The translations under genes were made by a program, and so were the position numbers. Shown here one piece after another: positions 8,788 through 27,194 of a DNA stretch of 44,604 bases (positions are counted from its first letter, which is position 1; each line of letters starts with the position of its first letter). The notes beneath the pieces are model-generated. The model had not been told where the DNA came from. It made no database searches and saw only the letters and a program-made list of their open reading frames with translations. This DNA comes from Anaerolineaceae bacterium (GTDB lineage Bacteria > Chloroflexota > Anaerolineae > Anaerolineales > Anaerolineaceae), in NCBI GenBank assembly GCA_017417055.1, contig JAFPZX010000062.1:1-44604 (forward strand), given 5' to 3'.

Positions 8788-9513
8788 TTACTGATACATC
8801 CCGGATCGATCGTTTTTCCTGACCTGCAGGATTTCCATCAGCATTTTTGGCACTGCACTCCATAACTTGATTTTGGAGTTTTCTTCATATTGAATCACAA
8901 CAGGAATTTCAGTAATTCGATAACCGAGCTTTTTCGCGATAAACAGAATTTCGGCATCAAACGCCCATCCATTGATGCGCTGCAAAGAAAAAATCTTTTC
9001 CGCAGCTTCTGCAGAAAAGCATTTAAACCCGCATTGCGTGTCACGAATACCCAGGTGAAGAATCATGTCAACAACAAAATTGAACACCCGGCTGGAAAGT
9101 CTGCGGATCAGCGGTTCGTCCTTTCGCACAGATCCTGCTGCTGTTCTGGACGCGATAGCAACCTGACAATCAGGCAGTTCGGGCGGAATAAATTTACTTA
9201 CCTCGGTAATCGGCATGGCAAAATCAACATCCGCAAACATCCGGTAAGAGCCGCATGCTTTCATCATTCCCCGTTTTACCGCATTTCCCTTCCCTGCTGA
9301 TTTTTCATAAACAGCCTGTACATATGGGTATTGATCCTGATACTCCGAAACCATTTCGTATGATTTATCCGTACAGCCATTCGCAACAAACAAAACTTCA
9401 ACAGAATACGGAACGGTATCAACAAAAGCTCTAATTTTGCTGATACTGTCAGGCAACCGCTTTTCTTCGTTATAAACAGGGATAATCAGGGACAAATGAA
9501 CTTTTTGACTCAT
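8788..9513 (-). CDS. GT2 polyprenyl-phosphate glucosyltransferase (DPG-synthase-like)
   Basis: This 241-residue cytoplasmic GT2 resembles dolichyl/undecaprenyl-phosphate glucosyltransferases (Alg5/GtrB type). It shows LSLIIPVYNEEKRLPDSI at the N-terminus, 'KGNAVKRGM', a DxD metal site in ADVDFAMP (D95, D97), then DTQCGFKCF and GWAFDAEILFIA, all hallmarks of this group. It lacks the C-terminal membrane helices of GtrB. The likely product is polyprenyl-phosphate glucose, the donor for GT-C enzymes such as its two neighbours. No Shine-Dalgarno is evident before the ATG. Convergent with the GtrII-like gene; 72 bases after the large membrane protein, so the two are probably co-transcribed. Confidence 0.82.
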   Translation of the reverse strand: MSQKVHLSLIIPVYNEEKRLPDSISKIRAFVDTVPYSVEVLFVANGCTDKSYEMVSEYQDQYPYVQAVYEKSAGKGNAVKRGMMKACGSYRMFADVDFAMPITEVSKFIPPELPDCQVAIASRTAAGSVRKDEPLIRRLSSRVFNFVVDMILHLGIRDTQCGFKCFSAEAAEKIFSLQRINGWAFDAEILFIAKKLGYRITEIPVVIQYEENSKIKLWSAVPKMLMEILQVRKNDRSGMYQ

Positions 9514-12042: not shown

Positions 12043-12106
12043 GGGGACTGTCCCCCACCCCTTCAGGCTGCTGCAGTGGGGACAGTCCCATAAAGGGACA
12101 GTCCCC
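12043..12106. repeat. REP-like palindrome, one half and one full copy
   Basis: A half unit GGGGACTGTCCCCC (12043-12056) is followed by a full 29-bp palindrome with core CATAAA (12078-12106), built as GGGGACAGTCCC-core-GGGACAGTCCCC. Other copies are at 24670, 24725, 39433 and 42018. Confidence 0.8.
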
Positions 12107-13097: not shown

Positions 13098-13120
13098 AAT
13101 GATCTCTCCTTATGAAAACA

Positions 13121-13200
13121 GGGAAGCACTGATTCATTCAGGTTCAGGGACAGTTTTGCGCAAAGCACAGAACTGTCCTCCCACATTCACCGAAATTCCT
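13121..13200. repeat. Family-A MITE-like element, degenerate copy
   Basis: The left end GGAAGCACTGATTCATTCAG and interior GGGACAGTTTTGCGCAAAGC...AGAACTGTCCTCCC match the elements at 16973, 18639 and 21528. The right terminal repeat is eroded and runs into a family-B element. Confidence 0.7.
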
Positions 13201-13322: not shown

Positions 13323-13326
13323 TGAG

Positions 13327-13415
13327 CGGAGAGGGGGGGATTCGAACCCCCGAATGAGTATTACCCCATTAACCACTTAGCAGGCGGTCCCGTTCAACCA
13401 CTCCGGCACCTCCCC
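13327..13415 (-). tRNA. tRNA-Ser (anticodon GCU)
   Basis: The 89-nt cloverleaf has acceptor stem GGGGAGG/CCTCTCC with one G-U pair, discriminator G, anticodon stem ACCGC/GTGGT with loop CTGCTAA (anticodon GCT), a long variable arm typical of tRNA-Ser, and T stem GGGGG/CCCCC with loop TTCGAAT. CCA is not encoded. A TATAAT box lies 12 bases upstream (13428-13433) and a terminator follows. Confidence 0.95.
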
Positions 13416-13483
13416 GAACACTGCTTTATTATAAACGATTTTTAAAAAAATGAGGGATTTTTCATAAAAAGTGACAAATTTTA

Positions 13484-13508
13484 AAATAAGAAGTAAGAAA
13501 TAAGAAGT
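13484..13508. repeat. Short heptamer tract (GAAGTAA type)
   Basis: Units AAATAAG-AAGTAAG-AAATAAG-AAGT keep a 7-bp phase. Shortest of the tracts. Confidence 0.5.
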
Positions 13509-13562
13509 GTTATACGATGCCTCACTCTGTACGTTTATAACCTATGATTTGTAATGTTGACC

Positions 13563-13609
13563 GTAACTGTTCAGAAGAGGCCGCGTTGGCTCAGGTTCTG
13601 AACAGTTAC
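13563..13609. repeat. 14-bp perfect inverted repeat (GTAACTGTTCAGAA)
   Basis: Arms 13563-13576 and 13596-13609 are perfect complements around a 19-base loop. The CTGTTCAGAA end is shared with the element at 1196. It lies just beyond the stop of the Rpn-type gene and could also act as an mRNA 3' hairpin, though no T tract follows. Confidence 0.7.
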
Positions 13610-13620
13610 CGGGATAGAAA

Positions 13621-14607
13621 TTAAAGGTTTTGTATTTCAGATTCCGGGAGACCGGTATATTTGGAAATCAGTACGGGGTCCATTCCATCCGCTTTCATCC
13701 GCCGGGCATCTTCAAGATGAGCATTCCTCAGCCCATCTTCTTTGCCTCGTTTGAAGCCTCGTTTTTCACCTCGTTTTTCACCTCTTTTTTCACCTCTTTT
13801 TTCACCTCTTTTTTCACCTCTTTTTTCACCTCGTTTTTCACCTCGTTTTTCAGCCCTCGTTTCAGCAAGTGACATTCTGAAGGCTTCTTCCCGTTTGGCG
13901 TCCTGATCCATTTGATAACGTCTTACCAACAGCGGATCATTGATAGCGATATTGTATTGTTTCGCAAAATTTAACATTCCTTCTGTCATAGCCGCCAGTT
14001 CCTCCATTTCCTCTTTATTTTTATAACCCCTGTCCAGTAAATATAACCATGTCAAAAACAAATCATCCTTCACCGACGCTAAGGTTTTGTGATTCTTCCG
14101 AAACGCCGGCATTTGGATATGATACATTTTGAATACATCCGTCGCCTGTTCCTTACGGTCATTTTCATAGACCATGATCACAGGCTCTACCACATTGTCA
14201 TGATCCTCCCGGATATAAAAATCCACAATATTGATCACCCGCACCGGCGGCATTTTATCATAGGTCAGACCGGATTCAAACTCGTTCGTCGCCAGTTTCC
14301 CACCGTAAAAGAACGAGCGCTCATTCACATAGTCCTTTTCGATCTGCACTTCAATATCAAATATCCGCCCTGATTTTGCCCGAACCCGCACGTCCAGCCG
14401 TCCGTATTTCTGCCCGACGCTTTCCGATATCAGCGGATATTCGCTCATCATGCTGATGATTTCTTCAATTGGTTCTTCTCCCACATGAACCAGGATCGCA
14501 TTCAAAAACTCCAGCATGGCCTGCCCTGATTTTTCCTCGCTTTGAAAGATACAGGAAAAAACCAGATTATTCAGTGGGCTTAATCGAACAATCTTTTTCT
14601 TTTCCAT
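13621..14607 (-). CDS. Rpn/PD-(D/E)XK nuclease-family protein with EKRG repeats
   Basis: This 328-residue protein belongs to the Rpn family (often annotated as PD-(D/E)XK 'transposase'). It has SPLNNLVFSCIF near the N-terminus, then catalytic-type Asp72 (YGRLDVRVRA) and Glu86-x-Gln88 (FDIEVQIEKD). The family includes DNA endonucleases that promote RecA-independent recombination in E. coli. The C-terminal third carries eight tandem EKRG units, then FKRGKEDG, then a short helical end found in many members. The start at ATG 14607 is preferred over 14619 because GGAG lies six bases upstream. No transposon ends or partner genes are seen. Confidence 0.82.
   Translation of the reverse strand: MEKKKIVRLSPLNNLVFSCIFQSEEKSGQAMLEFLNAILVHVGEEPIEEIISMMSEYPLISESVGQKYGRLDVRVRAKSGRIFDIEVQIEKDYVNERSFFYGGKLATNEFESGLTYDKMPPVRVINIVDFYIREDHDNVVEPVIMVYENDRKEQATDVFKMYHIQMPAFRKNHKTLASVKDDLFLTWLYLLDRGYKNKEEMEELAAMTEGMLNFAKQYNIAINDPLLVRRYQMDQDAKREEAFRMSLAETRAEKRGEKRGEKRGEKRGEKRGEKRGEKRGEKRGFKRGKEDGLRNAHLEDARRMKADGMDPVLISKYTGLPESEIQNL
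13757..13852 (-). repeat. Eight 12-bp in-frame tandem repeats (EKRG)
   Basis: Eight units encode Glu-Lys-Arg-Gly within the Rpn-type gene; Arg is CGA in the outer units and AGA in the four inner ones. A unit gain or loss changes length by four residues without a frameshift. Confidence 0.9.
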
Positions 14608-14700
14608 GAAACGCTCCATTTTTTATTCATCTTAAAGCATACCATGAATCAGTGGTATTTTCAATAGGCAAGTCGACACAAAAACAAAATTACACGGCAC

Positions 14701-14721
14701 GGATTAATCAGCGTTTCTTTA
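14701..14721 (-). repeat. Solo family-A terminal repeat providing a stop codon
   Basis: The minus-strand sequence AAGAAACGCTGATTAATCC overlaps the 3' end of the GT2 gene and supplies its last codons (AAA CGC TGA). Confidence 0.75.
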
Positions 14722-15853
14722 GAACTGTGACATTGCAGCTGAAATGATGAATCTTCCGGTAAACCGGTTTCAAGAAATCTTTCGTCAAATATGGAATTTC
14801 ATTCGGATGCCGAACAGCGAAGGCCAGGCGGCGGAGATGAATATCAAGATAATCCTTGCGTCCCGGCTTAACAAACGGCGCAGCGAAAGGCCGTTTTTCA
14901 ATATTTTCACCGTATTTAACCAGTCCCCGAAGAACCAGATTCTTTTTTATGTCATTATCGAGCAGCGGACAGTGTTCAACCTGTTCGCGAAGTTCCTGCA
15001 AAAATAACTTTGCGGATTCTTTTTGCCCCGGGAAACGCCTTATATAGGCATGCAGCCGAAGAAAAAAAAGCACCTGATAAATAATATATTTCTTCGTGTA
15101 AGTATCATGATCCCGTTTGAGCAGTAATTCCAGGCAGGTTCGAAACACTTTCAGTCTGTCAAAAAGCCGCACATCCGAATAGGTCCTTGTGAGGGAGTCC
15201 TTTCTGTAAACGAGGTGATATGATTCAGGTGCGTCACAAATTCCAAAAGATGCATTGCTCAGCCCAAGAAGAAACAGATAATACATATCTTCACTATATC
15301 GCGTATCTCCATATTTTATACCCTGCTCCAGGATCAATTTCCGGCGGACAAGCATACTTTGATGCTCTCTCTTGAAAACCATATAAAGCGGATATCCTTT
15401 TGCCAGCCTATCTTGAATTTCCCGGTTCAATTTGCTTTTTTCTGAAATTCCCAGCTCCGGGATGTCAAGAACAAAACTGCCTTTGACAATATCCAGATTT
15501 TTTTCGGCAGCGTATTGATAAAGCGCTTCGAGAAAATGATGGTCTATAAAATCATCCGGATCAACGCACAGGATATATTCTCCCCGGGCGGCTTCAATGC
15601 CCCGGTTCCGGGAAAGACCTGGGCCCATATTTTCCGGATTTTCCAGGATGCGGATGCGAGGGTCTTCGGCTGCCGCTGCCCGTATCTTTTCCATGGCATC
15701 GTCTGTTCCCCGGTCATCCACAAAAATCATTTCGATATCTTTCAATGTCTGGCTGCGCAATGACTCTATGCAGCGGTCAATACCCGGTCCGGGATTCCAT
15801 ACCGGCAGGATCACGGAAATGATAATGTTTTTTGCAAATAGTCCATCCATCAT
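14708..15853 (-). CDS. GT2 glycosyltransferase (array member E)
   Basis: This 381-residue protein has an N-terminal GT-A domain: ISVILPVWNPGPGIDRCIES, MIFVDDRGTDDAM, 'NPENMGPGLSRNRGIEAARG' and the DxD-type site CVDPDDFID. The C-terminal half is helical and specific to this array (ends near 'PYLTKDFLKPVYRKIHHF'). It is closest to the frameshifted gene at 24757-25931, sharing the motif RGLVKYGEN. It overlaps the upstream GT2 stop by 4 bases, so translation is coupled. Its stop codon falls in a family-A repeat end. Likely adds a sugar to a surface polysaccharide; donor and acceptor unknown. Confidence 0.85.
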   Translation of the reverse strand: MMDGLFAKNIIISVILPVWNPGPGIDRCIESLRSQTLKDIEMIFVDDRGTDDAMEKIRAAAAEDPRIRILENPENMGPGLSRNRGIEAARGEYILCVDPDDFIDHHFLEALYQYAAEKNLDIVKGSFVLDIPELGISEKSKLNREIQDRLAKGYPLYMVFKREHQSMLVRRKLILEQGIKYGDTRYSEDMYYLFLLGLSNASFGICDAPESYHLVYRKDSLTRTYSDVRLFDRLKVFRTCLELLLKRDHDTYTKKYIIYQVLFFLRLHAYIRRFPGQKESAKLFLQELREQVEHCPLLDNDIKKNLVLRGLVKYGENIEKRPFAAPFVKPGRKDYLDIHLRRLAFAVRHPNEIPYLTKDFLKPVYRKIHHFSCNVTVLKKR

Positions 15854-17088
15854 AGATCAAGCTTCTTGTTCTTCATGTCGCGGTGTAAATTTTTCCAGAG
15901 AATTTTAAGCCGCCGTCTGCACTTCGCAGCAAACTGTGGATGCGCCAGGGCAAAACCCAGATAAGCTGCGGCAAGATCAAGATAATCTGAAAGCTTTCTG
16001 TTATCCCATCGGAGCGCAAACACCCTGTCCGGCAGGCATATGCCATAGTCTAAGAGGACCATGGCGGAAAAAGATTTGTTTCTGAGCATGCCGCTGAAAG
16101 GCAAACGCTGAGCAGAAAACCTGACTCGTTCCAGACATTCGGCATATTTCTTTTTCAGATGAGAATCCTTCCTGAAAACAGTGAAATATTGAGATAGCCG
16201 ATGACCCAGTATACTCAATATATAAGTGCATGCATGCTCATCAGCAGCAGAAGATCCGGAAAAGAAATCTGCTAATGCCTCAAAGGACAGGGTAATATCT
16301 TCCAATCCATCAGCCTTATTCTTATGCATGGCAGAATTATTTCTCTCCATATAAAAGTATCTTGCATCATCACAGATGACAATTTTATCCGTCTTTGAAC
16401 ATATACGCAGCAAAAAAATTGTATCCTGGTCACGACGGGTGACGCCATACCATACATCTCCGCTTTCAAACAATTTCCGGCTATAAATTGCAGAAAAATG
16501 TTCATAAGTAAAAGCCGTAAACAGCGGTTTCCTTTCCGATAATTCTTTTCTGATTCGCTCATTCAGGAAAAAAATCTGCTCCACATCTGTTCCGTCCCCT
16601 TTTCGATAAACGCAGAACCCTTTGGCAATATCCGCCCCGGCGGATGCAGCCGCTGCATACAGACGTTCAAAATAATTCGGCGCGATATAGTCATCCGGAT
16701 CAATGAATGAAAGAAACTCTCCCCTTGCGGCTTCAATGCCCCGGTTCCGGGATGGACCGGCTCCCACATTTTCCGGATTTTCCAGGATGCGGATGCGAGG
16801 GTCTTCGGCTGCCGCTGCCTGTACCTTTTCCATGGCATCGTCTGTTCCCCGGTCATCCACAAAAATCATTTCGATATCTTGAAGGGTCTGGCCGCGCAGT
16901 GAGGAAATGCAGCGGTCTATCCCCGGTCCGGGATTCCATACCGGCAGAATCACGGATATTCGCGGATTTTCAGAAATGCACTGATTAATTGTGGAACGGG
17001 GACGGTTTTGCGCGAAGCGCAGAACTGTCCTCCCGCCTTCACTGGAATTAATCAGCGTTTCCTTAGAGATTGTCGAATCAGCAGACAT
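15850..17088 (-). CDS. GT2 glycosyltransferase (array member D) with repeat-derived N-terminus
   Basis: This 412-residue GT2 has ISVILPVWNPGPGIDRCISS, MIFVDDRGTDDAMEK, 'GAGPSRNRGIEAARGE' and the metal site FIDPDDYIA, followed by an array-specific helical C-terminus. The ATG at 17088 is seven bases after GGAG. About 40 N-terminal residues before the fold (from MSADSTISKETLINS) come from a MITE-like family-A element (16973-17064) inserted after codon 8; the element stays open in frame. The paralog at 21643-22890 starts directly at MTVISVILPVYN. Whether the extension is kept in the mature protein cannot be told. A remnant of another GT2 lies upstream. Confidence 0.83.
   Translation of the reverse strand: MSADSTISKETLINSSEGGRTVLRFAQNRPRSTINQCISENPRISVILPVWNPGPGIDRCISSLRGQTLQDIEMIFVDDRGTDDAMEKVQAAAAEDPRIRILENPENVGAGPSRNRGIEAARGEFLSFIDPDDYIAPNYFERLYAAAASAGADIAKGFCVYRKGDGTDVEQIFFLNERIRKELSERKPLFTAFTYEHFSAIYSRKLFESGDVWYGVTRRDQDTIFLLRICSKTDKIVICDDARYFYMERNNSAMHKNKADGLEDITLSFEALADFFSGSSAADEHACTYILSILGHRLSQYFTVFRKDSHLKKKYAECLERVRFSAQRLPFSGMLRNKSFSAMVLLDYGICLPDRVFALRWDNRKLSDYLDLAAAYLGFALAHPQFAAKCRRRLKILWKNLHRDMKNKKLDL
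16973..17064. repeat. Family-A MITE-like element inside a GT2 gene
   Basis: The ends GAAATGCACTGATTAATTG and (reverse) AAGGAAACGCTGATTAATTC are inverted. The interior is the palindrome GGGACGGTTTTGCGCGAAGC...AGAACTGTCCTCCC. It is about 92 bp long and translated as part of the downstream enzyme. Confidence 0.85.
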
Positions 17089-17129
17089 CAATTTTCTCCG
17101 GATTGATTGAATCGATAGAATTATTGCCC

Positions 17130-17337
17130 ATATTCCTTTTTCTCTACTCTCCGGGTACTCCGAGAGGAAATCGGCTCAGCGCCGAACGCGGTCATAATGG
17201 ATTTCGTTCGGTCTCAAATTACGGACAGATATCAGATTTTGATGATCCACCAGGATCTGCAATTCAATTATAGCTGTTTTAAGCTGACCCTTATCCGGAA
17301 TTTTCATGATTTGCTGACGCAGAGTCAATAATATTGT
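17130..17337 (-). pseudogene. Decayed 3' part of a GT2 gene (array member C)
   Basis: This stretch aligns by eye with the C-terminal coding region of the intact GT2 at 21643-22890 (about 21860-22070) and of the remnant at 19710-20210, including strings related to 'ggaaatcnncncagcgccgaac' and TTTTGATGATCCA. It has frameshifts and no open frame. It sits just upstream of the GT2 start at 17088, exactly where an array neighbour's 3' end should be. The rest up to about 17450 is AT-rich with nothing recognised. Confidence 0.75.
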
Positions 17338-17588
17338 GCTGTTTTTAATTATAGGGAGTTGAGGCTATATCAGCGAAATTTTCATAGCACTTCGACGAAA
17401 GAAGATGGGGGGAGTGCTGTCTCTAATACTTTCAAATGGGCTGACATCAAATTTTGGTAATAATGTCAGTAATAAAAATCGATCCGAGAATAATGAATTG
17501 TTTAATGATATATACTATTTTGTTGTACTTGGCGTTTGTTTTTAATGTTTATGAGTTAAAAGGTTCAAGGCTGAGAATAGGAGAACAT

Positions 17589-18656
17589 ATGGATCAATTA
17601 TTTAAAAAATGGTTAGAGGAAGGAAAGATCTCTCAGCGGGCATATTTGAACCTTATTGGCGGCAATTCAGTGCATAATTCAACATCTCCCGTGGATGGCA
17701 AATTGAAGATTTCCGTTTTGATATCTACATATAAGAGAGCTGCTTATCTGATCAGACTTTTAAATTCTATCAAAAATCAGCAATATAATAACTGCGAGAT
17801 AATCATTGTTGACGATGCTTCTAACGACGATACGGAAGAACGTGTCAAACAATACAGAGAAGAAAACAGGGAACTGAACATTATATATTTGGTGAACGAG
17901 CGCAATTTGGGCGCCGGTGAAAGCAGAAAGAGAGCGTATTTAAAAGCTACAGGTGATATCGTTATTTTCGTGGATGATGATGATTACTATATTGAGCCGG
18001 CTTATTTTTCCATGCTGAATCATTTATATGAGGAACATCCTGATTGCACGATGACGGCTGCACCAACAATAGAACTCTTTGAACAGGAAGGAAAATATGA
18101 GTACCGTGGCTTAAATAATCCGAAGGCAATAAGCAATCGAGAGTATTTTAATGGTTTTGGCAAAAAGTACACAAGTCCGCATATAAACGCAGTATCATTA
18201 AACAACACTGTACTGAAAAAGGTCCATTATGAGGAACTTCTATTTTTCAATCATATATCTCTGCTATTATTTGCATTGTTGGAGAAAGGAAATGTATATA
18301 CAATAAATCAGGCCGTTGGAATTCGTACATTCCATACGGGAAATATGACAGGGAACACAACTCCGGAGTTTATACTATCGAACATGGAAGCCAAAGAGGA
18401 TATCTATCAGCGGGCGATGGCCGCCGGACTGCTGGATAATCCAAAAGAATGGCGATATAGACACTTGTCGGGTACAGCAATTTATCACTTTGAGAACAAT
18501 CAAATGATAACAGCAAAAGATATGATCATTTTTATATGGATGAAGAAGCACCTGGAGAAAACAGAATTTCATAGATTCGTCAAAAGAATATTGCAAATGA
18601 CAAAATTAAGAGTCAAACGTTGGCTGCGAGCGAATTTCAAGGAAAACACTGATTAA
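17589..18656 (+). CDS. GT2 glycosyltransferase, divergent orientation
   Basis: This GT2 has KISVLISTYKRAAYLIRLLN, 'CEIIIVDDASNDDTEE', 'NERNLGAGESRKRAYLKATG' and the metal site FVDDDDYY. It is not part of the minus-strand array family and is more AT-rich. The ATG at 17589 is favoured by AGGAG five bases upstream, giving 355 residues. The frame is open to 17454 and would add a hydrophobic segment (IYTILLYLAFVFNV), so a membrane-anchored longer form is possible. The last codons (AAG GAA AAC ACT GAT TAA) are from a family-A repeat end. It pairs with the pyruvyltransferase gene in a cassette inserted in the array. Confidence 0.83.
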   Translation: MDQLFKKWLEEGKISQRAYLNLIGGNSVHNSTSPVDGKLKISVLISTYKRAAYLIRLLNSIKNQQYNNCEIIIVDDASNDDTEERVKQYREENRELNIIYLVNERNLGAGESRKRAYLKATGDIVIFVDDDDYYIEPAYFSMLNHLYEEHPDCTMTAAPTIELFEQEGKYEYRGLNNPKAISNREYFNGFGKKYTSPHINAVSLNNTVLKKVHYEELLFFNHISLLLFALLEKGNVYTINQAVGIRTFHTGNMTGNTTPEFILSNMEAKEDIYQRAMAAGLLDNPKEWRYRHLSGTAIYHFENNQMITAKDMIIFIWMKKHLEKTEFHRFVKRILQMTKLRVKRWLRANFKENTD

Positions 18657-18735
18657 TTGAGGAGCTGGGACGGTTCTCCCGAGGAACGAGGGGAACTGTC
18701 CTCCCGCCTTCACCGGAATTAATCAGCGGTTCCCA
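18639..18735. repeat. Family-A MITE-like element
   Basis: The left end AAGGAAAACACTGATTAATT overlaps the GT2 3' end and supplies its stop codon. The right end is GGAATTAATCAGCGGTTCCC. The interior has GGGACGGTTCTCCC...GGAACTGTCCTCCC. It lies between the two genes of the plus-strand cassette. Confidence 0.85.
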
Positions 18736-18775
18736 AGGTTTAAATCTGCTTGTGACAAAAGGAATCGAAGAATAG

Positions 18776-19609
18776 ATGTACAAAATATTTTTCTACTCAC
18801 ATCCCAATATGGGCGACAGATTGAACAAGGTTATGCTTGAAGATCTGTTTGGAATAAAAGTAACCCAAACAGACCTGATGAAAAGTAATATGAGCGCAAT
18901 TGGAAGTTACCTTGGTGTATTAACGTGCAGCAAAAGACTTAGATACAGATTAAAGCAGCGATTGCGCTATCCATTTGCTCCGAAAGATCATTATGTGTGG
19001 GGGACAGGCTTTATGTCATATAAGACATATAAAAATGTAGGATTACTATTCAGGAATTTGCATTTTTGTGCAATAAGAGGAGAGCTTAGTAAGAAAAAAA
19101 TTGAAGATATCATCGGGAAAAAACTGGACATTCCAACAGGTGATGGCGGATTGTTAGCGGACCGCTGGGTTGGAAACAATGCAAAGAAAAAGTATTCTAT
19201 AGGTATCATTCCTCATTTTAAGGAGCAGGATCATTCCCTTATAAACAGCATTAAAAACTATTACAAGAATTCAGTAATTATAGATCTTACGGATGAACCA
19301 CGGAGCGTATTAAGGCTGATTTCTGAGTGTAATACTATATTGTCCAGCAGCCTGCATGGTCTAATCGTTTCTGATAGTTTTCATATTCCTAATATGCATA
19401 TGATACTATATAGGTATGGCGAACGAATTTTGGGAGATGGATTTAAGTTTTCAGACTATTATTCTTCTTATGGAGTTGAAGATAACCCCATATGTATGGA
19501 AAGCGGAAAATGGCCCGGCGTGGATGATATAGTCAACAACTATGTAATAGATACGAAGATGGTTGAGAATAAAAAGGATCAATTATATAGATGCTTTCCG
19601 AAATTGTGA
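18776..19609 (+). CDS. Polysaccharide pyruvyltransferase family protein
   Basis: This 277-residue protein fits the pyruvyltransferase family (CsaB/WcaK type), which adds ketal-linked pyruvate to surface sugars from PEP. Visible landmarks are NMGDRLNKVMLEDLFG at the N-terminus, HYVWGTGF, CAIRGELSKKKIE, 'IPTGDGGLLAD' and SSSLHGLIVSDSFHIPN, the conserved catalytic His region near residue 195. The N-terminal half is shorter than usual. A weak GAAG site precedes the ATG. It follows the divergent GT2 after a family-A element. Probable role: a negatively charged modification on the glycan. Confidence 0.83.
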   Translation: MYKIFFYSHPNMGDRLNKVMLEDLFGIKVTQTDLMKSNMSAIGSYLGVLTCSKRLRYRLKQRLRYPFAPKDHYVWGTGFMSYKTYKNVGLLFRNLHFCAIRGELSKKKIEDIIGKKLDIPTGDGGLLADRWVGNNAKKKYSIGIIPHFKEQDHSLINSIKNYYKNSVIIDLTDEPRSVLRLISECNTILSSSLHGLIVSDSFHIPNMHMILYRYGERILGDGFKFSDYYSSYGVEDNPICMESGKWPGVDDIVNNYVIDTKMVENKKDQLYRCFPKL

Positions 19610-19650
19610 TGCTAATCACTATCAAGCGGCAAATAATTCGCGTCAATATT

Positions 19651-19674
19651 AGAGATTGTTGAATCAGCAGACAT
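19651..19674 (-). pseudogene. Orphan 5' end of a GT2 gene (array member C)
   Basis: The minus strand reads GGGAGAATTG then ATGTCTGCTGATTCAACAAT and CTCT, the same ribosome site and first eight codons that open the GT2 genes at 17088 and 21643. The match ends precisely where the family-A element begins in those two genes. Beyond the junction lies the pyruvyltransferase 3' flank. Confidence 0.75.
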
Positions 19675-19709
19675 CAATTCTCCCCGGGACAAATTTTTCG
19701 GTAAATTAA

Positions 19710-20210
19710 CTATACTGCTCGGTTTAATGCACGTTTCAGCGCGGGGGATGAATAACGGAGCATCAGGCTTCGTTGGCTGCCGGTCAGTCTTCTGATTTGT
19801 TCCCGTATAAACGCAAAATACTGTTTCCTGAAAAAAACCGTTTTCCCCGGTGTGATTGTTTTCGGGAAAATTACATCGGCCAGAGCGAGATCAAATCGGG
19901 TCCATATTCTATTATCTTTGATTTCCGGATGCTTCGACAGGAAATCGACCCAGCGCTGAACCCGGTCATAATGAAATTCCTTTGGGCTCAAATTATGGGC
20001 AGGTATCAATGTTTGATGATCCATCAGGATCCTTGATTCAACGCTGCACGTTTTGAGCTGATCCTGATCCGGAAGTCTCATCATCTGTTGACGCAGAGAA
20101 TTCATTAATTCTGCCGCCTGCTCTTCCGAAAGCGAATCTACAGAGATGGCATTACATAGCATGGATATGAAATATCTACTTTTACCGGACAGATATTGAT
20201 AATCATATTT
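19710..20210 (-). pseudogene. 3' half of a GT2 gene (array member B)
   Basis: The open frame 19710-20162 encodes a piece nearly identical in plan to the C-terminus of the GT2 at 21643-22890: 'NAISVDSLSEEQAAEL', 'RWVDFLSKHPEIKDNRIWT', 'KQYFAFIREQIRRLTG'. Nucleotide similarity continues out of frame to about 20208, then stops eight bases before the stop codon of the ATP-grasp gene. The GT-A catalytic half is missing. Its N-terminal counterpart is at 21299-21643. Confidence 0.85.
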
Positions 20211-20216
20211 GTAACC

Positions 20217-21191
20217 TTACATTGCTTTCGGAAGGGTAAACATTTCCCCGACCCAGAGATCAGCTTCCGGAGGGTTCCATTTGCATGTACCTGACCTGGA
20301 GGTAAATGTCATTTCACCAAACTTGATTTCACCATTGTCAAGAAGATAAAGATCAACTCTGACATGAGGAAATCCGTCTGCCAGTATCTCTGCTATTCTT
20401 ATCATTTCAGGCAAGGATTTCGGCATGGGAACATCGTTTTCATAGTTTTTATAAGGTCTAATCGTATAAGGGAGTTTGTTCCATTTAGAATCGAACAATA
20501 CAATGTATCCACCATTTCTGCGATCTTTTATATATTCGATAAATTTACATTTTCCATCAAAACACCAGAATTTATAGTCCGGCATGTCTCCGTCCATGTT
20601 TTCCATGTATTGCTCGACGATCAGCCTGCGGGGAATGTCGTTGTATTGCTGTTCATAGCCGTATCTGAAGGTAAAATTTTCATGCAGCCAGCCTCTTGCA
20701 AGGGAGCGGATTTTTTCGAAATTTTCATTTGATTTATCCCGAACAATATAATTCATTCTGCTGCCGTGGTTGGCTTTAAGCACGAAGGAATTTGGCAGTG
20801 CGTCAAAATCGATCTCGTCTGCGGAGTGGTAGACACCAAGAAGTTGTATCAGGTATTCTTCACCGATTTTTTCTTTGATCCACTCCCGTACCAGGTATTT
20901 ATCCACGAGCCTGGTTTTCATGGGGTCACGATCATACACCTTCATCCACTGGATCTTTTCGTTATAGGTTTTCGGATTCTCCAGGTCCAACGGATTGCCG
21001 GTGATGTCCTGGTACCATTGTTTAATAGCATGGGCGTAAAGATCAGGATCGAGATGATTATAGGAGAGGGTTTTTAACTCATTGTAATTTGTATTAAGTG
21101 TTTGCAGCTGTTTCTCCATCGCTGTCAGCCGTTTGTTCAAAGACTGCGACGACATCGGTAGAAATTGTTTCAACCATTCACGAAATGACAT
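20217..21191 (-). CDS. TupA-like ATP-grasp protein
   Basis: This 324-residue protein matches the TupA-like ATP-grasp family found in teichuronopeptide and polysaccharide loci: 'LVDKYLVREWIKEKIGEEYL', 'LPNSFVLKANHGS', 'RRLIVEQYMEN', 'PDYKFWCFDGKCKFIEYI', 'HVRVDLYLLDNGEIKFGEMTF'. ATP-grasp enzymes join a carboxylate to an amine, so amidation of a uronic acid with an amino acid is plausible. A coiled-coil stretch (about residues 15-40) precedes the domain. The ATG at 21191 follows an AAAGGA site at long spacing; the frame stays open to 21302 but that part is probably leader. The gene replaces the middle of a GT2 gene whose ends flank it. Confidence 0.82.
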   Translation of the reverse strand: MSFREWLKQFLPMSSQSLNKRLTAMEKQLQTLNTNYNELKTLSYNHLDPDLYAHAIKQWYQDITGNPLDLENPKTYNEKIQWMKVYDRDPMKTRLVDKYLVREWIKEKIGEEYLIQLLGVYHSADEIDFDALPNSFVLKANHGSRMNYIVRDKSNENFEKIRSLARGWLHENFTFRYGYEQQYNDIPRRLIVEQYMENMDGDMPDYKFWCFDGKCKFIEYIKDRRNGGYIVLFDSKWNKLPYTIRPYKNYENDVPMPKSLPEMIRIAEILADGFPHVRVDLYLLDNGEIKFGEMTFTSRSGTCKWNPPEADLWVGEMFTLPKAM

Positions 21192-21298
21192 ATTTTTAGA
21201 TTTTTCCTTTATTTCCTTTTTTCTATTATAACCTATTCTCAGCGGTAATTTCAGTATAAAAACGCTGTAAAAGTCATAATTCTTTCTGCTATAAGAAC

Positions 21299-21643
21299 TC
21301 ACTTTAAAGGACCGGCTCCCATATTTTCCGGATTTTCCAGGATGCGGATGCGAGGGTCCTCGGCTGCTGCTGCCCGTATCTTTTCCATGGCGTCATCTGT
21401 ACCCCGGTCATCCACAAAAATCATTTCGATATCTTGAAGGGTCTGGCCGCGCAGTGACGTTATGCCGCGGTCAATCCCCGGTCCGGGATTCCATACCGGC
21501 AGGATCACAGATATTCGCGGACGTTCAGGAAAGCTCTGATTCATTGGAGCTCGGGGACGGTTTTGAGCGAAGCGCAGAATGGTCCTCTCGCCTTCTCGGG
21601 AATTAATCAGCGATTCCCTGGAAATTGTCGGATCAGCAGACAT
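21299..21643 (-). pseudogene. 5' part of a GT2 gene (array member B)
   Basis: This fragment encodes 114 residues: a family-A-derived extension, then ISVILPVWNPGPGIDRGI, MIFVDDRGTDDAMEK and 'ILENPENMGAGP', where homology stops and reads LK-stop. The intact paralog continues SRNRGIEAARGE. The DxD site and acceptor half are lost. AAAGGAG precedes the ATG, which overlaps the upstream GT2 stop as TGATG, so a truncated protein could still be made. Confidence 0.85.
21528..21621. repeat. Family-A MITE-like element in GT2 remnant
   Basis: It has the same position and orientation, after codon 8, as the element in the GT2 at 15850-17088, with interior GGGACGGTTTTGAGCGAAGC. The shared insertion site implies the two genes descend from one already interrupted copy. 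Confidence 0.8.
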
Positions 21644-22890
21644 CAATTCTCCTTTGGTCGAATGATTCTGTAAATAATTTTTAATGCATAAATCATTGCA
21701 GGTGACGAATAACGGAACATCAGACTTCGCTGCCTACCGGTCAGTCTGCCGATCTGTTCCCGTATGAAAGCAAAATACTGTTTCCCGGAAAAAACATGTT
21801 TCCCTGATATTTTATTAGATGGGAAAATCACTTCGACCAGAGCGAGATCAAACCCGGTCCATATTCTGGTATTTTTGATTTCCGGATGCTTCGACAGGAA
21901 ATCAACCCAGCGCCGAACCCTGTCATAACGGAATTCCTTTGAGTGTAAATTACGGGCAGGTATCAGTTTTTGATGATCCATCAGGATCATTATTTCAACG
22001 CTGCCTTCTTTGACCTGATTCTGATCCGGAAGTCTTATGATCTGCTGAGAAAGAGCATCCGCTAATTCCGCCGCCTGCTCTTCCGAAAGCGAATCTACAG
22101 AGATGGCATAACATAAACAGGATACGAATACTGAAAATCTTTGGGACAGATACAAATAATCAAAAGTGTCCATATTACCGCTGAGCAGAAAATCGATTCT
22201 CTCGGTGAGGCTGTCCAGGTCATACTGTAAGCGCCGTTTCGTGAAAGGAGCCGTTTGGGAACCGGGTCTTTGGGAATAATAGTAAACCGCGTCATCGTCA
22301 AAAATAATGTTCCGGGCTTTTTTGCAAACGATCAGCAAAAATGTCACATCCTGCCCGTTGCGGCTATTCCCGTACCGGACCTTCTTATCCTCAAACAGGT
22401 TCTTTTTATAAATTGCGGTCTGGTGCTGCCATGAAAACAAGACAAAAAAAGGAATTCCCTGTTTTAAGTTCTTTCGGATCGCCGGATTCAATTTTTCTAT
22501 ATAAGAAGCACCGGATTCCAGGTCAACTTTTCTTCTTATCCCTTTCGCGATGTCATAATTTCCTGAAACTGCCTTTGCATACAAGCGTTCATAAAAATCC
22601 GGTGCGATCCAGTCATCCGGATCAATGAATGAAAGATATTCTCCTTTTGCGGCTTCAATGCCTCGGTTTCGGGTTGGACCGGAACCAAGGTTCTCTGTAT
22701 TGCGGATGATCCGAACACGTGGATCGGTTCGCGCGAAATCTTCGATAACGGCCACGGAATTATCGGTGGAACAATCATCGACAAAGATGAATTCCAGATC
22801 CCGGAAGCTTTGCCGCTTCAGTGATTCGATGCAGGCGCCGATATAAGGTTCTACATTATAAACGGGAAGAATAACGGAAATCACGGTCAT
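21643..22890 (-). CDS. GT2 glycosyltransferase (array member A)
   Basis: This intact 415-residue GT2 has ISVILPVYNVEPYIGACIES, EFIFVDDCSTDNSV, 'GSGPTRNRGIEAAKGEYL' and the metal site FIDPDDWIA. The C-terminal region (about 230-415) has VDSLSEEQAAEL, WVDFLSKHPEIKNTRIW and 'QYFAFIREQIGRLTG', and is the reference for the remnants at 17130 and 19710. It begins four bases inside the end of the ABC exporter gene (22887-22890 overlap), so the two are coupled. No repeat-derived N-terminal extension. Confidence 0.87.
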   Translation of the reverse strand: MTVISVILPVYNVEPYIGACIESLKRQSFRDLEFIFVDDCSTDNSVAVIEDFARTDPRVRIIRNTENLGSGPTRNRGIEAAKGEYLSFIDPDDWIAPDFYERLYAKAVSGNYDIAKGIRRKVDLESGASYIEKLNPAIRKNLKQGIPFFVLFSWQHQTAIYKKNLFEDKKVRYGNSRNGQDVTFLLIVCKKARNIIFDDDAVYYYSQRPGSQTAPFTKRRLQYDLDSLTERIDFLLSGNMDTFDYLYLSQRFSVFVSCLCYAISVDSLSEEQAAELADALSQQIIRLPDQNQVKEGSVEIMILMDHQKLIPARNLHSKEFRYDRVRRWVDFLSKHPEIKNTRIWTGFDLALVEVIFPSNKISGKHVFSGKQYFAFIREQIGRLTGRQRSLMFRYSSPAMIYALKIIYRIIRPKEN

Positions 22891-24632
22891 TGTTCCCGTC
22901 CGGTTGTCAATTCTCTGCAGCTCACAGTGTTCGCGTCAATGTGAACCTCTCTGTCACAGATGTCCAAAGCCGCCGGACGATGGGTGACGATCAAAACCGT
23001 CCTGTCGGTCAGGGCCCGCAGGTGTTCCAGCAGCACCCGCTCGGTTTTCTCATCCAGCGAGCTGGTTGCCTCATCCAGCAGCAAAATCGGACGTCCGGTA
23101 TAAATCGCGCGGGCAACCGCCAGCCGCTGCACCTGGCCTTCCGAAAGCCCCAGCCCTTTTTCCCGAATCTGCGTATCCAACCCTTTTGGCAGCTTTTCGA
23201 CAAAATCCAGCGCACAGGCGATCTCCAGCGCCTCCCGGACTTTTTCATCATCCTGTTGGTCTGTTTTGTCGGAAAACGTAACCACCTCCCGGATAGAACC
23301 GGTCATCAGTTGATTTCCCTGCGGTACGTAGGCGAACAGTCTTCTGTAAGCGGCGTTCAGTTCATCCTCCGTTCCATTCTGATCCAGGATCACTTTTCTG
23401 CCGCCGTCCAATGGATAAAGGCTCATCATCAGTTTGAAAATCGTGCTTTTCCCGCTGCCTGTCAGGCCGGTGAAGGCGGTAAAGCTTTGTTTGCTTATGG
23501 TCAGATCCACATGCGAAAAGATTTTTGGCGCGGTATATAAGGCATCCGCACTGCGGTCCTGATAGGAAAAAGAGACGTCCCGGAGTTGGATCTCCCGGAA
23601 GCGGTTTTTGTAAAAATCGCTGATCTCTTCATCACCTTTGACCGGACCGGCCGGGTCATCCGGGTAGGATTCAGCCTCCCGCAGTCTTTCAATGCTGACA
23701 ATGTAATCAAAAAAATTATTGATATAATTTCCGAAGCTGTTGAGCGGGGCGCGAATTTGGGTCAGCAAACGGTAACACATCATCAGCGTGCCATAACTGA
23801 ACCGTCCATTCAGAAGATAGTACCCCCCTAATAATACGAGGATCTGGGTCCCTAATCTGAAGCCGGTATTCTGCAAGGATTTTTTATAGAGCGTGATCAG
23901 AAAACGCCGGATTCTTTTGCCGTATTCAGTTTTTAACAGTTCATCTCCGCGTTGTTTGGTAAACGCCTCCCTGTTGAACGCTTTCACGATCATCATCTGG
24001 GATAAAGCGTCGATTAAAAAGGATCTGGTTTTCCCCTGTGCCTCACGAAACTCCCGCTGGCGCACCATCATCGGTTTCCGTGTAATCAGCGTCAGCACAG
24101 CAAAAAAAAGGACAGCCAGCAGTGTGGCAGGAAGGAAGATCCATGAGACACTCAGCAGCAGCCAGGTGGCGCCGATGAGGCGGAGCACTACACCGGTCAG
24201 TCCCGGCACTACATTGGCAATTAATTTCGAAAGACCATCTGTGTCACCGTTGATCCGGTTCATCCATTCGCCGGTATGTTTTTCGGAGAAACGGGAGAAA
24301 TCTTTATTCAGTAAAGTCTCAAACTGACGCTGCTGCAGACCGATTTGGATCTGAAAAGCGGTGCGGTTCGACAGGTATTCATCCAAAACCGATAAAATCA
24401 ATTCTGCTGCAAGAATCAGCACCATACGGACCGCCATGGACCGGAACAGCTCCCGGTTGCAGGTTGTCGCGGCATCAATGAGCGTCCGCAGCCAGGTGGC
24501 GCTTAGCAGTGAAAGAATCGTGGTCACAACGGAGATCAATATCAGCAAAATGACCATGCCGTGCCAGGGTCTGGTCATCCGGAAGATCCAGCGGATGTTT
24601 TCGTTTTTATTCTTTTGCGGTGAGTTATTCAA
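22887..24632 (-). CDS. ABC exporter, fused membrane and ATPase domains
   Basis: This 581-residue half-transporter has about six membrane segments (residues 25-310) and a C-terminal ATPase: Walker A GLTGSGKST, Q-loop 'FAYVPQGNQL', signature LSEGQVQR (Gly to Glu versus LSGGQ), Walker B ILLLDEATSSLD and switch His in LIVTHRP. It would act as a homodimer exporting a lipid, glycan precursor or peptide. A TTG start at 24632 is supported by GGGAGA six bases upstream. It is coupled to the downstream GT2, which suggests a role in the glycan pathway, though generic MsbA-like use is possible. Confidence 0.87.
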   Translation of the reverse strand: MNNSPQKNKNENIRWIFRMTRPWHGMVILLILISVVTTILSLLSATWLRTLIDAATTCNRELFRSMAVRMVLILAAELILSVLDEYLSNRTAFQIQIGLQQRQFETLLNKDFSRFSEKHTGEWMNRINGDTDGLSKLIANVVPGLTGVVLRLIGATWLLLSVSWIFLPATLLAVLFFAVLTLITRKPMMVRQREFREAQGKTRSFLIDALSQMMIVKAFNREAFTKQRGDELLKTEYGKRIRRFLITLYKKSLQNTGFRLGTQILVLLGGYYLLNGRFSYGTLMMCYRLLTQIRAPLNSFGNYINNFFDYIVSIERLREAESYPDDPAGPVKGDEEISDFYKNRFREIQLRDVSFSYQDRSADALYTAPKIFSHVDLTISKQSFTAFTGLTGSGKSTIFKLMMSLYPLDGGRKVILDQNGTEDELNAAYRRLFAYVPQGNQLMTGSIREVVTFSDKTDQQDDEKVREALEIACALDFVEKLPKGLDTQIREKGLGLSEGQVQRLAVARAIYTGRPILLLDEATSSLDEKTERVLLEHLRALTDRTVLIVTHRPAALDICDREVHIDANTVSCRELTTGREQ

Positions 24633-24669
24633 ACTGATTCTCCCAATTTTTATATGACATCATTCGCAC

Positions 24670-24753
24670 GGGGACTGTCCCTTTATGGGACTGTCCCCAT
24701 TACATTGTGATTTACAAAACTGCCGGGGACAGTCCCATAAAGGGACAGTCCCC
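24670..24753. repeat. Pair of inverted REP-like palindromes
   Basis: Copies at 24670-24698 and 24725-24753 (core TTTATG/CATAAA) are exact reverse complements of each other, 26 bases apart, like a bacterial interspersed mosaic unit. They lie between the ABC exporter and the split GT2. Confidence 0.88.
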
Positions 24754-24756
24754 ATC

Positions 24757-25931
24757 TCATATCTTTTCATCCAGTTTCCTTTGAATTGTACGCAAAAATT
24801 CACTCAATACAGCCGGGAACTCACGAGGATGCCGGCAGACAAAACCGGCTATATGCAGCCACCTACGCAAATACTCGCCCATGCCCGGTTTATGAAACGG
24901 AGTGGTATAAGGCTTGAATGAGAGATTTTCTCCATATTTGACCAATCCCCGGATGGGCAGATTGTTTTTGATCAGGTCATCGGACAATGGACATCTCATA
25001 ACCTGTTCGCATATCCCTTTAAAAAAGGTTTCAGAAGTTTCCTTCAGCTCCGGAACAGAACTTGCTCCTGAATGTCTAAGAAGCATGTATCTGGTCCTCT
25101 TCAAAAGAACATATTCTGCATATTCGTCAAATTTTCTGCTCAGCAGAAAATCGACTTGCTCACGGAATCCATCCAAACTGCCCATAAGATTTTTCTCGCA
25201 TATTTGGTTCGTAAGGGAGTCTTCCCGATATACATAATGGTAAGCACCTTTTGTTTCACAAATATCGAAAGAAACTTCAGCATAGCCAAAACGAAGAAGA
25301 AACGTTGTGTCCTGTCCACAATAGGAATTTCCATAGCGTATTTGATATTGCATAAGGATGGATCGGCGAAACAGAATACTTTGGTGTTGGTTCAAAAGTG
25401 TATAAAGCGGATCCCCCCCCGAGTATATCTCTTTTTTATACGGTCATTTACACGTTTTTTGAATACCTGACTGCCATCAGCCAATTCGTGAACAAATTTG
25501 CCTTTGACAAGATCAAGCTTTCCCTCGCATGCGTACCGATAGAGTTCCTCAAGATAGTCAGCATCCATAAAATCATCCGGATCGGTAAATTGGAGGTATT
25601 CTCCGCGGGCGGCTTCGATGCCGGCGTTGCGTGAAAAAACGGGACCTGAATTTTGTTCATTGTGGATAATACGGATGCGGGAATCTTCATTCGCTGCTGC
25701 ATGAATTTTCTCCATGGTTCCGTCTGTTCCACAGTCATCTACGAAAATCATTTCTATTTCCCGCAGGGTCTGTTCTCTCAATGACCTGATGCAGCGTTCA
25801 ATACCGCTGCCCGGATTGCAGACCGGCAGAATGACAGAGACTTTGATGTGTTCTGAAATTTCGTGATCCTGATTTTTCTGTTCCATGCGTTTTTGTATTC
25901 CTGAACTTTCAGACGAATCCACTAAAAACAT
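24757..25931 (-). pseudogene. GT2 gene split by a G8 homopolymer (frameshifted or phase-variable)
   Basis: Upstream frame 25392-25931 encodes the GT-A half: KVSVILPVCNPGSGIERCIR, MIFVDDCGTDGTMEK, 'RNAGIEAARGEYL' and metal site FTDPDDFMD. It then shifts at eight G (25413-25420 on the plus strand as C8) into a short tail ending IRFIHF. Downstream frame 24757-25395 continues as the C-terminal half (from MNQHQSILFRR; RGLVKYGEN shared with the GT2 at 14708). Six or nine G would restore one ~390-residue enzyme reading RGDPLYTLLNQHQS, aligning with GYPLYMVFKREHQS of the paralog. Start could be 25931 or ATG 25886. Either a slipped-strand phase switch, true decay, or a sequencing error. Confidence 0.8.
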
Positions 25932-26009
25932 TTTATCACGGTTATTTCAACACACCGCTCCGCTGAGCCAAATTCTTACATACCTGGTTATCATTCACGG
26001 CGTATCCTC

Positions 26010-26033
26010 GGGACAGGCCCAAGGGCCTGTCCC
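26010..26033. repeat. Short palindrome GGGACAGGCCC/GGGCCTGTCCC
   Basis: A perfect 11-bp stem with a 2-base loop, lying in the gap 25932-26092. Variant of the REP-like unit with GGCCC replacing GTCCC. Confidence 0.7.
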
Positions 26034-26092
26034 CACTGCAGTCTCATGCGCACGGAACGCTGAAATATACCCCCGACGGGTTTTGAAAGTAT

Positions 26093-26908
26093 TTACTTTT
26101 TGCAAATAATCAAGGGTATGTTCCCGATATGAGCCGCGCATCTACCGAAGGAGCTCCAGTAACTTCCATAGATCTTGGAGCATTTGCTGAGGCACAAGAG
26201 GTCAATATAAGCATCACGGATTCCGTTTTGTTCAGCTCTGGAAAGTTCTATTCCTGTACGGGTGAAGATATGCTTACTCCCGTAACGCTTCAGGAGTAAT
26301 GACTTGCTTTCACTGTCATCTGATGCGATGAAAAAGATACAATTACCGTTATTTTCATCCATTTCCCGGTCCATGTTTTTCATGAAAAGCTCCAGTGGGG
26401 AGTTTTCAATGGAGGCAATGTTATCTGTCCGGCGGATGTGAATACCTATCAGGTTCGTGTGATCAAAGATTTTGGGCAGAGAGTCTGATATCGCCGATAC
26501 GGGATGAAAAATTGTGTAGTCTAAGGGTGGAAAATGTTCGTCAGTAGTTTTGTATAAGGTTTCACAGGTCCGAATATAGATGTTTTCGGGCTTTGAAAGA
26601 AACTCGTGTGCTTTATTCTTTTCTTTCCATAGTTTGATGTCTTTATCTGTGAAAAACCGATTTTTTCCCATGATTGTCGGAATTAGCTTGAGAAACTTTT
26701 TTGGGAAAAAACCATTCACAACAATTCCTTGAATATTTTCCGGCAGATTGAATAGTTCCCGGTAACTGCAATTGCAGTCGGTATCGTTTTTCCAAACAAG
26801 CACCAGCTTTTTATTTTCTGTTTCAGCGACATGATAGGCGGAAGCGATAACACGCATTCGGTTACACAATCCATATCTTGGTTGAAGGAAGATAATACTT
26901 CTGCCCAT
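26093..26908 (-). CDS. Fucosyltransferase-like glycosyltransferase
   Basis: This 271-residue protein has an N-terminal strand then 'PRYGLCNRMRVIASAYHVAE', the pattern of GDP-fucose-binding enzymes, and HIRRTDN near residue 157, the conserved Arg motif shared by alpha-1,6/alpha-1,2 and O-fucosyltransferases. A C-terminal 'DLLCLSKCSKIYGSYWSSFG' matches the usual 'D...L..C....G...S.FS' acceptor/donor region. It probably adds fucose or a related sugar to the surface glycan. ATG 26908 is chosen because a promoter lies immediately upstream; a longer frame to 26956 would overlap that promoter. Confidence 0.72.
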   Translation of the reverse strand: MGRSIIFLQPRYGLCNRMRVIASAYHVAETENKKLVLVWKNDTDCNCSYRELFNLPENIQGIVVNGFFPKKFLKLIPTIMGKNRFFTDKDIKLWKEKNKAHEFLSKPENIYIRTCETLYKTTDEHFPPLDYTIFHPVSAISDSLPKIFDHTNLIGIHIRRTDNIASIENSPLELFMKNMDREMDENNGNCIFFIASDDSESKSLLLKRYGSKHIFTRTGIELSRAEQNGIRDAYIDLLCLSKCSKIYGSYWSSFGRCAAHIGNIPLIICKK

Positions 26909-26915
26909 AAAAATG

Positions 26916-26943
26916 AGTATATCACACGGTGTAGGTTTGTCAA
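26916..26943 (-). promoter_or_regulatory. Strong promoter abutting the fucosyltransferase-like start
   Basis: On the minus strand, -35 TTGACA (26938-26943), a 16-base spacer and extended -10 TGATATACT (-10 hexamer 26916-26921). The ATG begins eight bases after the -10, so the transcript would start at or next to the ATG. Confidence 0.72.
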
Positions 26944-27083
26944 CGATGGGTGACAAAACTCTTTAAAAAAGCGGGGTAATTCACGCGTCTGCCAATATGG
27001 CTGTGACATACATGAAAGCAGCGATGTCCCGCTGATCTGGGGCGCTCATGGCGAGAGATGAAGCTCCGCGCGTGCTTCACATA

Positions 27084-27159
27084 ACTGCACTCTGAACTCT
27101 GCACACTTCACTCTTCACACTTATTCACTCCTCATTCCTCACTCCTAACTCCTCACTCC
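27084..27159. repeat. Degenerate heptamer tract (CACTCTT/CCTCACT types)
   Basis: About eleven 7-bp units run from ACTGCAC to CTCACTCC, shifting from CACTCTG/CACACTT-like to CCTCACT-like units without losing the 7-bp phase. It lies just upstream of the gene at 27195 and its likely -10 TATGAT. Confidence 0.75.
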
Positions 27160-27194
27160 ATAAAAACTGTGGTATGATAAGTAGGGGTACATTT

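Follow-up and report, generated by a model that had tools for sequence, protein, structure and literature searches.

A tandem array of glycosyltransferase genes of the GT2 family lies in the window, the stretch of 44,604 nucleotides that makes up bases 1-44604 of contig 157 (JAFPZX010000062.1) in the draft genome of an Anaerolineaceae bacterium (GCA_017417055.1; 4.4 Mb in 200 contigs, 85% complete, 5.5% contaminated). The window was analysed for open reading frames (ORFs), Pfam domains, tRNA genes and Rfam families, tRNA being the sole match of the Rfam search, and was compared with itself by BLAST (self-BLAST). The array follows an ABC exporter gene and is interrupted by two sets of other genes, hereafter cargo 1 and cargo 2 (Table 1). 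Its GT2 units, whole or broken, are named U0 to U5; a-type designates those like U1, and b-type those with the WNPG type of GT2, like U4.

Table 1. Features of the GT2 array and its surroundings, in window coordinates
Feature	Coordinates	Strand	Basis
ABC exporter (ABC_membrane + ABC_tran), head of the ABC-GT2 module	22887..24632	-	Pfam; orthologues with 46-49% identity in L026, L180, L181
U1, intact a-type GT2	21643..22890	-	PF00535 E 1.1e-39
U2 5' piece: junction, in-frame palindromic repeat and first ~70 codons of b-type (WNPG) GT2 domain	21309..21643	-	89% to U4
Cargo 1: TupA-like ATP-grasp gene, likely ORF 20217-21191	20213..21308	-	PF14305 E 4e-47
U2 3' piece: 167 open codons of U1-type C-terminal domain	19710..20213	-	80% DNA identity to U1
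Shared junction including the "eight codons" (19651-19674)	19649..19687	-	92% to 17063-17101
Cargo 2: GT2 (17454-18656) and polysaccharide pyruvyltransferase (18776-19609), 37% GC	17344..19651	+	PF00535, PF04230
Palindromic repeat copy between the two cargo-2 genes	18630..18733	-	80% to 16962-17062
U3 3' piece, U1-type, pseudogene fragment: in-frame TGA, C-terminus lost	about 17128..17324	-	self-BLAST, alignment
U4, intact b-type GT2, in-frame repeat (16962-17062) in N-terminal extension	15850..17091	-	PF00535 E 5e-33
U5, intact b-type GT2	14708..15853	-	PF00535 E 5e-32
U0, GT2 as two ORFs broken at an eight-G run (25413-25420), beyond the ABC gene	24757..25931	-	ORFs, Pfam
Stretch from tRNA-Ser to C39-peptidase gene, missing in the genus relative G013	13482..27162		

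The PF00535 cut-off is passed by U1, U4 and U5, in agreement with an earlier interpretation made from the DNA alone (the sequence-only reading), which had listed these three as intact GT2 genes; the first ORF of U0 and the cargo-2 GT2 exceed it as well. The U2 5' piece exceeds the cut-off over profile positions 1-66 only, and no Pfam family was matched by the 150-aa ORF in the U2 3' piece. The translations of U0, U1, U4 and U5 contain a DPDD sequence, which we take to be the acidic DxD-type motif of GT2 enzymes; it is absent from the U2 5' piece, which ends short of it at about codon 112.

The genes of both cargoes probably attach substituents to glycans or alter those present. Cargo 1 matches PF14305 at 161 bits against a cut-off of 25 (E 4.2e-47, profile positions 1-240 of 241) and the pyruvyltransferase of cargo 2 matches PF04230 at 45.2 bits against a cut-off of 25.3. 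Our surveys of relatives comprised 14 genomes of the genus and 147 of the family, the source genome being counted in both; TupA-like relatives at 1e-15 occur in 4 of the 14 (own included), the five other matches being 37-43% identical. Upstream of cargo 1 there is a promoter-like site at 21254-21225 (10/12 match), in a stretch where such matches are not above background (31, versus 27.4, sd 6.0, in shuffled sequence). The GC content of the cargoes is 0.37 and 0.40 versus 0.55 in the right flank.

Remnants, shared junction and cargo edges

GT2 remnants flank both cargoes, with homology far beyond chance. In the self-BLAST, 19652-20171 matches 21621-22128 (80%, E 2e-132), 16754-17096 matches 21309-21651 (89%, E 2e-127), 17128-17324 matches 19902-20098 (77%, E 2e-36) and 17063-17101 matches 19649-19687 (92%, E 1e-8), all on the same strand and collinear, which bears out the earlier claim that the remnants are homologous to GT2 genes and lie in the right order and orientation. 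The 3' part of a U1-type GT2 with its junction to the next gene is present in three copies (21621-22128, 19652-20171 and, broken, 17063-17324), as is the b-type (WNPG) 5' domain (21309-21651, 16754-17096 and 15613-15820), the E-values of these copies spanning 1e-8 to 2e-132.

All three U1-type 3' ends lead into one common junction, which includes eight codons that the sequence-only reading had taken for the start of a third interrupted GT2. No counterpart of MSADSTIS was seen in U1, U5 or the GT2 genes of two related loci from other genomes (L026 and L180, described below), and the match between 19649-19687 and 17063-17101 halts beside a palindromic repeat located at about 16962-17062 in U4 and 21517-21617 in U2; the eight codons are therefore part of the shared junction and not of a GT2 domain. 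Alignments beyond them yield no trace of a GT2 5' domain, their scores being reached by 518 and 758 of 2000 shuffles. Unit 3 thus has no proven GT2 5' remnant; that its 3' piece flanks the plus-strand GT2/pyruvyltransferase pair stands.

The edge of cargo 1 is close, as had been claimed in placing a remnant within eight bases of a cargo stop codon: the gapped alignment of the U2 3' piece with U1 resumes at 20212, four bases past the TupA stop codon (20217-20219). The edge alignment at 20212 alone was matched by 22 of 2000 shuffles and the edge is good to about 10 bases. In the 20 bases either side of each of the fuzzy cargo edges, the longest direct repeat at each cargo has 7 bases (p about 0.10 for one and 0.09 for the other), and the longest inverted matches are of 4 bases at cargo 1 (p 0.96) and 8 bases at cargo 2 (p about 0.02 uncorrected, not significant after four tests). 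A transposon-borne or cassette-like origin of the cargoes was rejected for want of significant target duplications or inverted ends within these intervals. The two cargoes differ in strand, and their edges fall at no common position in the GT2 gene. As GT2 genes constitute most of such an array, two landings in GT2 need no preference; by a rough estimate from gene lengths, the chance that both cargoes do so is about 0.6.

These edges bear directly on the proposal of the sequence-only reading that the array is a docking frame, wherein conserved GT2 ends would act as homology arms for the repeated exchange of new glycan genes. That two cargoes lie between GT2 pieces, one with its stop codon so near to resumed homology, and that array members recombine (see below) would suit such a frame. 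However, the cargoes are unlike in strand, gene position and edges, direct repeats are not significant, the single inverted 8-mer is weak, and on the cargo-2 side there is a decayed, stop-bearing fragment; moreover, the array was found in 1 of the 147 family genomes, so that no other cargo was seen, and the L026 array has no cargo at all. The data support a gain of other glycan genes accompanied by a loss of GT2 sequence. The docking frame, with edges that share neither position nor significant repeats and with two instances in a single genome as its sole positive evidence, appears very unlikely.

The palindromic repeat is ~80-100 bases long with ends near CTGATTAATT / AATTAATCAG, and lies in the window at 13119-13197, 16962-17062, 18630-18733 and 21517-21617; its other copies in the genome mostly start within about 5 bases of the edge at which the junction match halts. 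A genome-wide search gave 228 first-look candidates, and all 40 that were scored match; the 30 repeat loci examined contain 32 matches, which amount to 31 distinct places since one place was reached from two loci. The copies in frame inside an identified gene are those of U2 and U4, where they form N-terminal extensions of GT2 ORFs, and five more places, in unannotated sequence, fall within or beside open frames that a mechanical measure puts at 260-524 codons. A general role of the repeat in creating in-frame extensions of proteins was considered and rejected, with just the U2 and U4 copies, among the 31 places, in frame in an identified gene. Short repeats of a second family (GGGGACAGTCCCATAAAGGGACAGTCCCC or its complement) are found in or beside gaps between long ORFs (12078-12106, 24670-24698, 24725-24753, 39432-39461 and 42018-42047).

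Mixed ancestry and gene conversion

The two halves of U2 differ in ancestry, as indicated by domain trees with approximately unbiased (AU) tests, of 18 rows for the N-terminal domain (without the very long row of the cargo GT2) and 12 rows for the C-terminal domain (omitting the L024 row). In the N-terminal tree the U2 5' piece groups with U4 (support 84/82) inside a b-type group of 8 of the 18 rows (100/97), and its grouping with U1 is rejected (p-AU 6e-5); in the C-terminal tree the U2 3' piece forms a clade with U1 and the U3 piece (96/96), and its grouping with U4 (p 0.012) or with five b-type rows (p 0.003) is rejected. The silent-site divergence (dS) of the two pieces to their sisters is similar (0.27 and 0.41). 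With halves of different ancestry, unit 2 either was a chimera or represents what is left of two genes: the GT2 pieces do flank the ATP-grasp gene, as had been noted, but as a 5' part of U4 lineage and a 3' part of U1 lineage and not as the two ends of one uniform paralog.

Gene conversion has acted within the array. When 14 gene pairs were tested for tracts of identical silent codons, U4 and U5 showed a tract with 42/43 identical, reached in 0/20000 permutations; the sliding dS of this pair is 0.04 in codons 69-103 and at least 0.7 in all other segments, which sets a bounded silent tract against diverged surroundings. A tract between U1 and U4 (17/19, codons 117-141, p 0.005 before correction) and one between the neighbouring genes b1 and b2 of another genome, G164 (44/58, p 0.004), are borderline after correction, and the three pairs of the L026 array have no tract. 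The silent sites of U4 switch from U5/U2-like to U1-like near codon 117.

We slightly favour the chimera for unit 2, since unequal crossing-over of U1 with a U4-like neighbour would yield genes with a b-type 5' and an a-type 3' end and the same junction each time, and since the U1-like silent sites of U4 (codons 117-141) adjoin the end of the U2 5' piece. A real, if lesser, possibility is that U1-type and U4-type genes stood in alternation in the old array and that each cargo took the place of one gene's 3' end and/or its neighbour's 5' end, such that no single GT2 had its middle replaced. The different ancestry of the U2 halves, the one junction into which all three U1-type 3' ends run, and the eight codons of unit 3 without a GT2 domain suit such a scar across two genes, for which the Neisseria glycosylation loci offer a parallel in a deletion over the ends of the neighbouring pglG and pglH (in the excerpt of PMC6959607 used here). 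Against this, six or seven ancestral genes are needed instead of five, with larger losses, and the silent-site switch in U4 (p 0.005 before correction) is as expected of a chimera. This alternative differs from our preferred interpretation only in the chimera step, and the confidences placed in the two overlap.

The remnants have decayed to different degrees. The 167 open codons of the U2 3' piece, with a dS of 0.41 and a replacement-site divergence (dN) of 0.21 to U1 (dN/dS 0.52), indicate that this piece was a coding sequence during some of its past. The U3 piece is more decayed, with an in-frame TGA and its end lost, and cargo 2 may therefore be the older event.

Conversion within the array could also suggest that the truncated pieces are a reservoir of silent cassettes donating to intact genes, by analogy with pilE, which truncated donor alleles serve (same excerpt, PMC6959607). 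The truncated copies are indeed 77-90% alike to the intact ones, which themselves carry conversion tracts; yet the clearest tract joins two intact genes (U4-U5, dS 0.04), the U2 5' piece is farther from U4 and U5 in nearly the same codons (dS 0.25 and 0.31), and the U3 piece has a stop; this interpretation appears very unlikely. Improbable too is a broader version in which the array would be a diversity generator, its truncated pieces recombining with intact GT2 genes to swap 5' catalytic domains while its gaps take up sugar-decorating genes; were it so, one locus would alter both acceptor specificity and glycan decoration.

Genomic site and relatives in other genomes

The array lies inside a 13.7-kb stretch between tRNA-Ser (13326-13481) and the upstream region of a C39-peptidase gene (27163 on), a gene present in 13 of the 14 genus genomes, own included. 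In G013 about 130 bases separate the tRNA-Ser from the C39 upstream region, and the 13.7 kb are therefore absent there. The site is variable among congeners: other genes occupy it over about 6.8 kb (G005), 1.8 kb (G006) and 2.7 kb (G012), the tRNA being inverted in the latter two. The stretches fetched from G008, G009 and G010 have no tRNA match. This comparison covers, out of the 14, the genomes just named. A classical tRNA-integrated island was rejected: the tRNA-Ser is on the minus strand with its 3' end (13326) facing away from the stretch. No repeat of the tRNA-Ser end was found near 27163 by self-BLAST at E 1e-3, a search that could miss short repeats.

U0, a further GT2 of the U1 family missing from the list of the sequence-only reading, lies within the same stretch; its break at the eight-G run might reflect slipped-strand phase variation or an assembly error. 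At 13726-13869, 12-base tandem repeats give a GEKR run close to the end of a PD-(D/E)XK transposase-like gene.

The array as such is confined to its own genome in our surveys: the C-terminal domain of U1 was found in 1 of the 147 family and 1 of the 14 genus genomes, which is the source genome in each case, and none of the 147 provides a second array with other cargo. Likewise, the ABC gene at 1e-60 is found in 1 of the 14 genus genomes, again its own, which also holds two 38% paralogs. A scan of named genomes recovered 141 relatives of U1, of which 80 loci were kept. Among these is L026, from the Lachnospiraceae metagenome-assembled genome (MAG) RUG11623, in which three intact GT2 genes come in uninterrupted tandem after an ABC orthologue (47%); it has no TupA or pyruvyltransferase match at 1e-5. 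The sequence-only reading had proposed to look for uninterrupted units in other strains; the L026 array, from this Lachnospiraceae MAG, supports the ancestral tandem array of that reading, while its count of five paralogs is only one of the two readings given above.

The ABC gene of L026 was matched at 1e-60 in 4 of 7 genomes (8 loci), and three of the four, G163 (L026), G164 (L180) and G165 (L181), have as their best match an orthologue that shares 46-49% identity with the ABC gene of the window and lies beside or near GT2 genes of the U1 family; L180 and L181 have no TupA or pyruvyltransferase match at 1e-6. The Lachnospiraceae MAGs RUG11623 and RUG13928 (L180) and the Atopobiaceae MAG RGIG4373 (L181) resemble the window in an ABC orthologue beside or near GT2 genes that include WNPG-type copies. 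They differ in that the GT2 array of L026 is uninterrupted and that of the window interrupted, in that the GT2 genes of L180 are on the strand opposite to its ABC gene, and in that L181 has an ATPase-like ORF between ABC and GT2, the latter being cut by the contig end.

Among the matches scored, three candidates per genome, so that misses are possible, the ABC gene at 1e-120 was found in 2 of 397 genomes in the family of G163 (G163 and one at 37% with stops) and at 1e-110 in 9 of 395 in the order of G165, G165 among them. Seven of the latter are at 38-40%, and none of the five fetched has a GT2 match at 1e-8; the G802 match is 77% identical over 378 residues to the contig end, with no GT2 match on its contig. 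Of nine stretches around other ABC hits (32-37% to the window ABC), eight have no GT2 match at 1e-8 and L204 has two weak ones.

Other MAGs carry two GT2 domains in one open frame, as tandem fusions: L027 (51-2294), L033 (253-2397) and L030 (3088-5244 and 5278-8082), in MAGs named Eggerthellaceae, Lachnospiraceae and Ruminiclostridium. L028, from an Atopobiaceae MAG, has fragmented GT2 matches (6047-6539 and 8330-9074) beside an intact GT2, and broken copies of the family therefore exist elsewhere too.

A putative surface-glycan island and its known counterparts

We propose, with a probability of roughly 0.7, that the locus is a horizontally variable surface-glycan island shaped by array duplication, conversion and decay. 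Its core would be the ABC exporter and the tandem GT2 genes that follow it. The array would have grown by tandem duplication of a segment comprising a U1-type 3' end, the junction, the repeat and a U4-type 5' end, most simply through unequal crossing-over of neighbouring paralogs with chimeric genes as products, while gene conversion would have limited the divergence of parts of the 5' catalytic domains. Redundant GT2 copies would then have been broken by ordinary insertion-deletion as the TupA-like gene was gained and, separately, as the GT2/pyruvyltransferase pair was gained. Tandem duplication, conversion, insertion with deletion and horizontal gain would account for nearly everything seen; no sign of a special insertion device was found, and the locus carries a fairly ordinary trace of change in a surface-sugar cluster. 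In favour of the proposal are the collinear homologies, the mixed ancestry of U2, the U4-U5 tract, the unbroken array of L026, the differing contents of the site among congeners and the low GC of the cargoes relative to the right flank.

Several points weigh against this proposal. With no other genome carrying this array, the order of events is deduced from a single contig, in a draft genome with the contamination noted above. The groups subjected to AU tests were chosen after a first tree had been seen, and column fill in the trees is only 47% for the U2 5' piece and 35% for the U3 piece. An intact chimeric gene remains conjectural: for the suspected example, b2 of G164, the C-terminal tree gave no significant result (p-AU 0.36 and 0.41). 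No tract was found in 11 of the 14 gene pairs, and only that of U4-U5 is outright safe after correction for 14 tests. U1, U4, U5 and the ABC gene have GC contents of 0.44-0.51, and GC alone does not mark off the whole stretch. Finally, the proposal does not account for the end of the junction at the edge of the repeat, which chance or a repeat-linked break may have produced.

Changes in a surface-glycan cluster can be read from the locus: paralogs multiply by duplication, conversion makes parts of their 5' domains common to them, and redundant copies disappear where new glycan genes become established. It also cautions that the two halves of an apparent gene remnant may differ in ancestry and are not safely read as one gene. 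Among the titles listed in our literature search, none reports such an arrangement of GT2 remnants and cargo.

In capsule and O-antigen type glycan loci, a variable locus with fixed flanks, acquired genes of low GC and glycosyltransferase remnants are familiar features; the window differs in that its fragments are all of one tandem GT2 family adjoining an ABC exporter. Another parallel is the pgl genes of Neisseria, for protein glycosylation, where the excerpted text of PMC6959607 describes a deletion across the pglG 3' end and pglH 5' end, a pseudogenised glycosyltransferase, pglP, and a CREE repeat insertion that lengthens the end of an ORF. The likeness thus extends to the deletion spanning neighbouring genes, the pseudogenised glycosyltransferase and the repeat extending an ORF. 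In Neisseria, as far as that excerpt goes, the variation was traced over isolates and species and no foreign glycan gene lies in the scar (PMC6959607), whereas the window has two cargoes in one genome, its history being read from that single genome.

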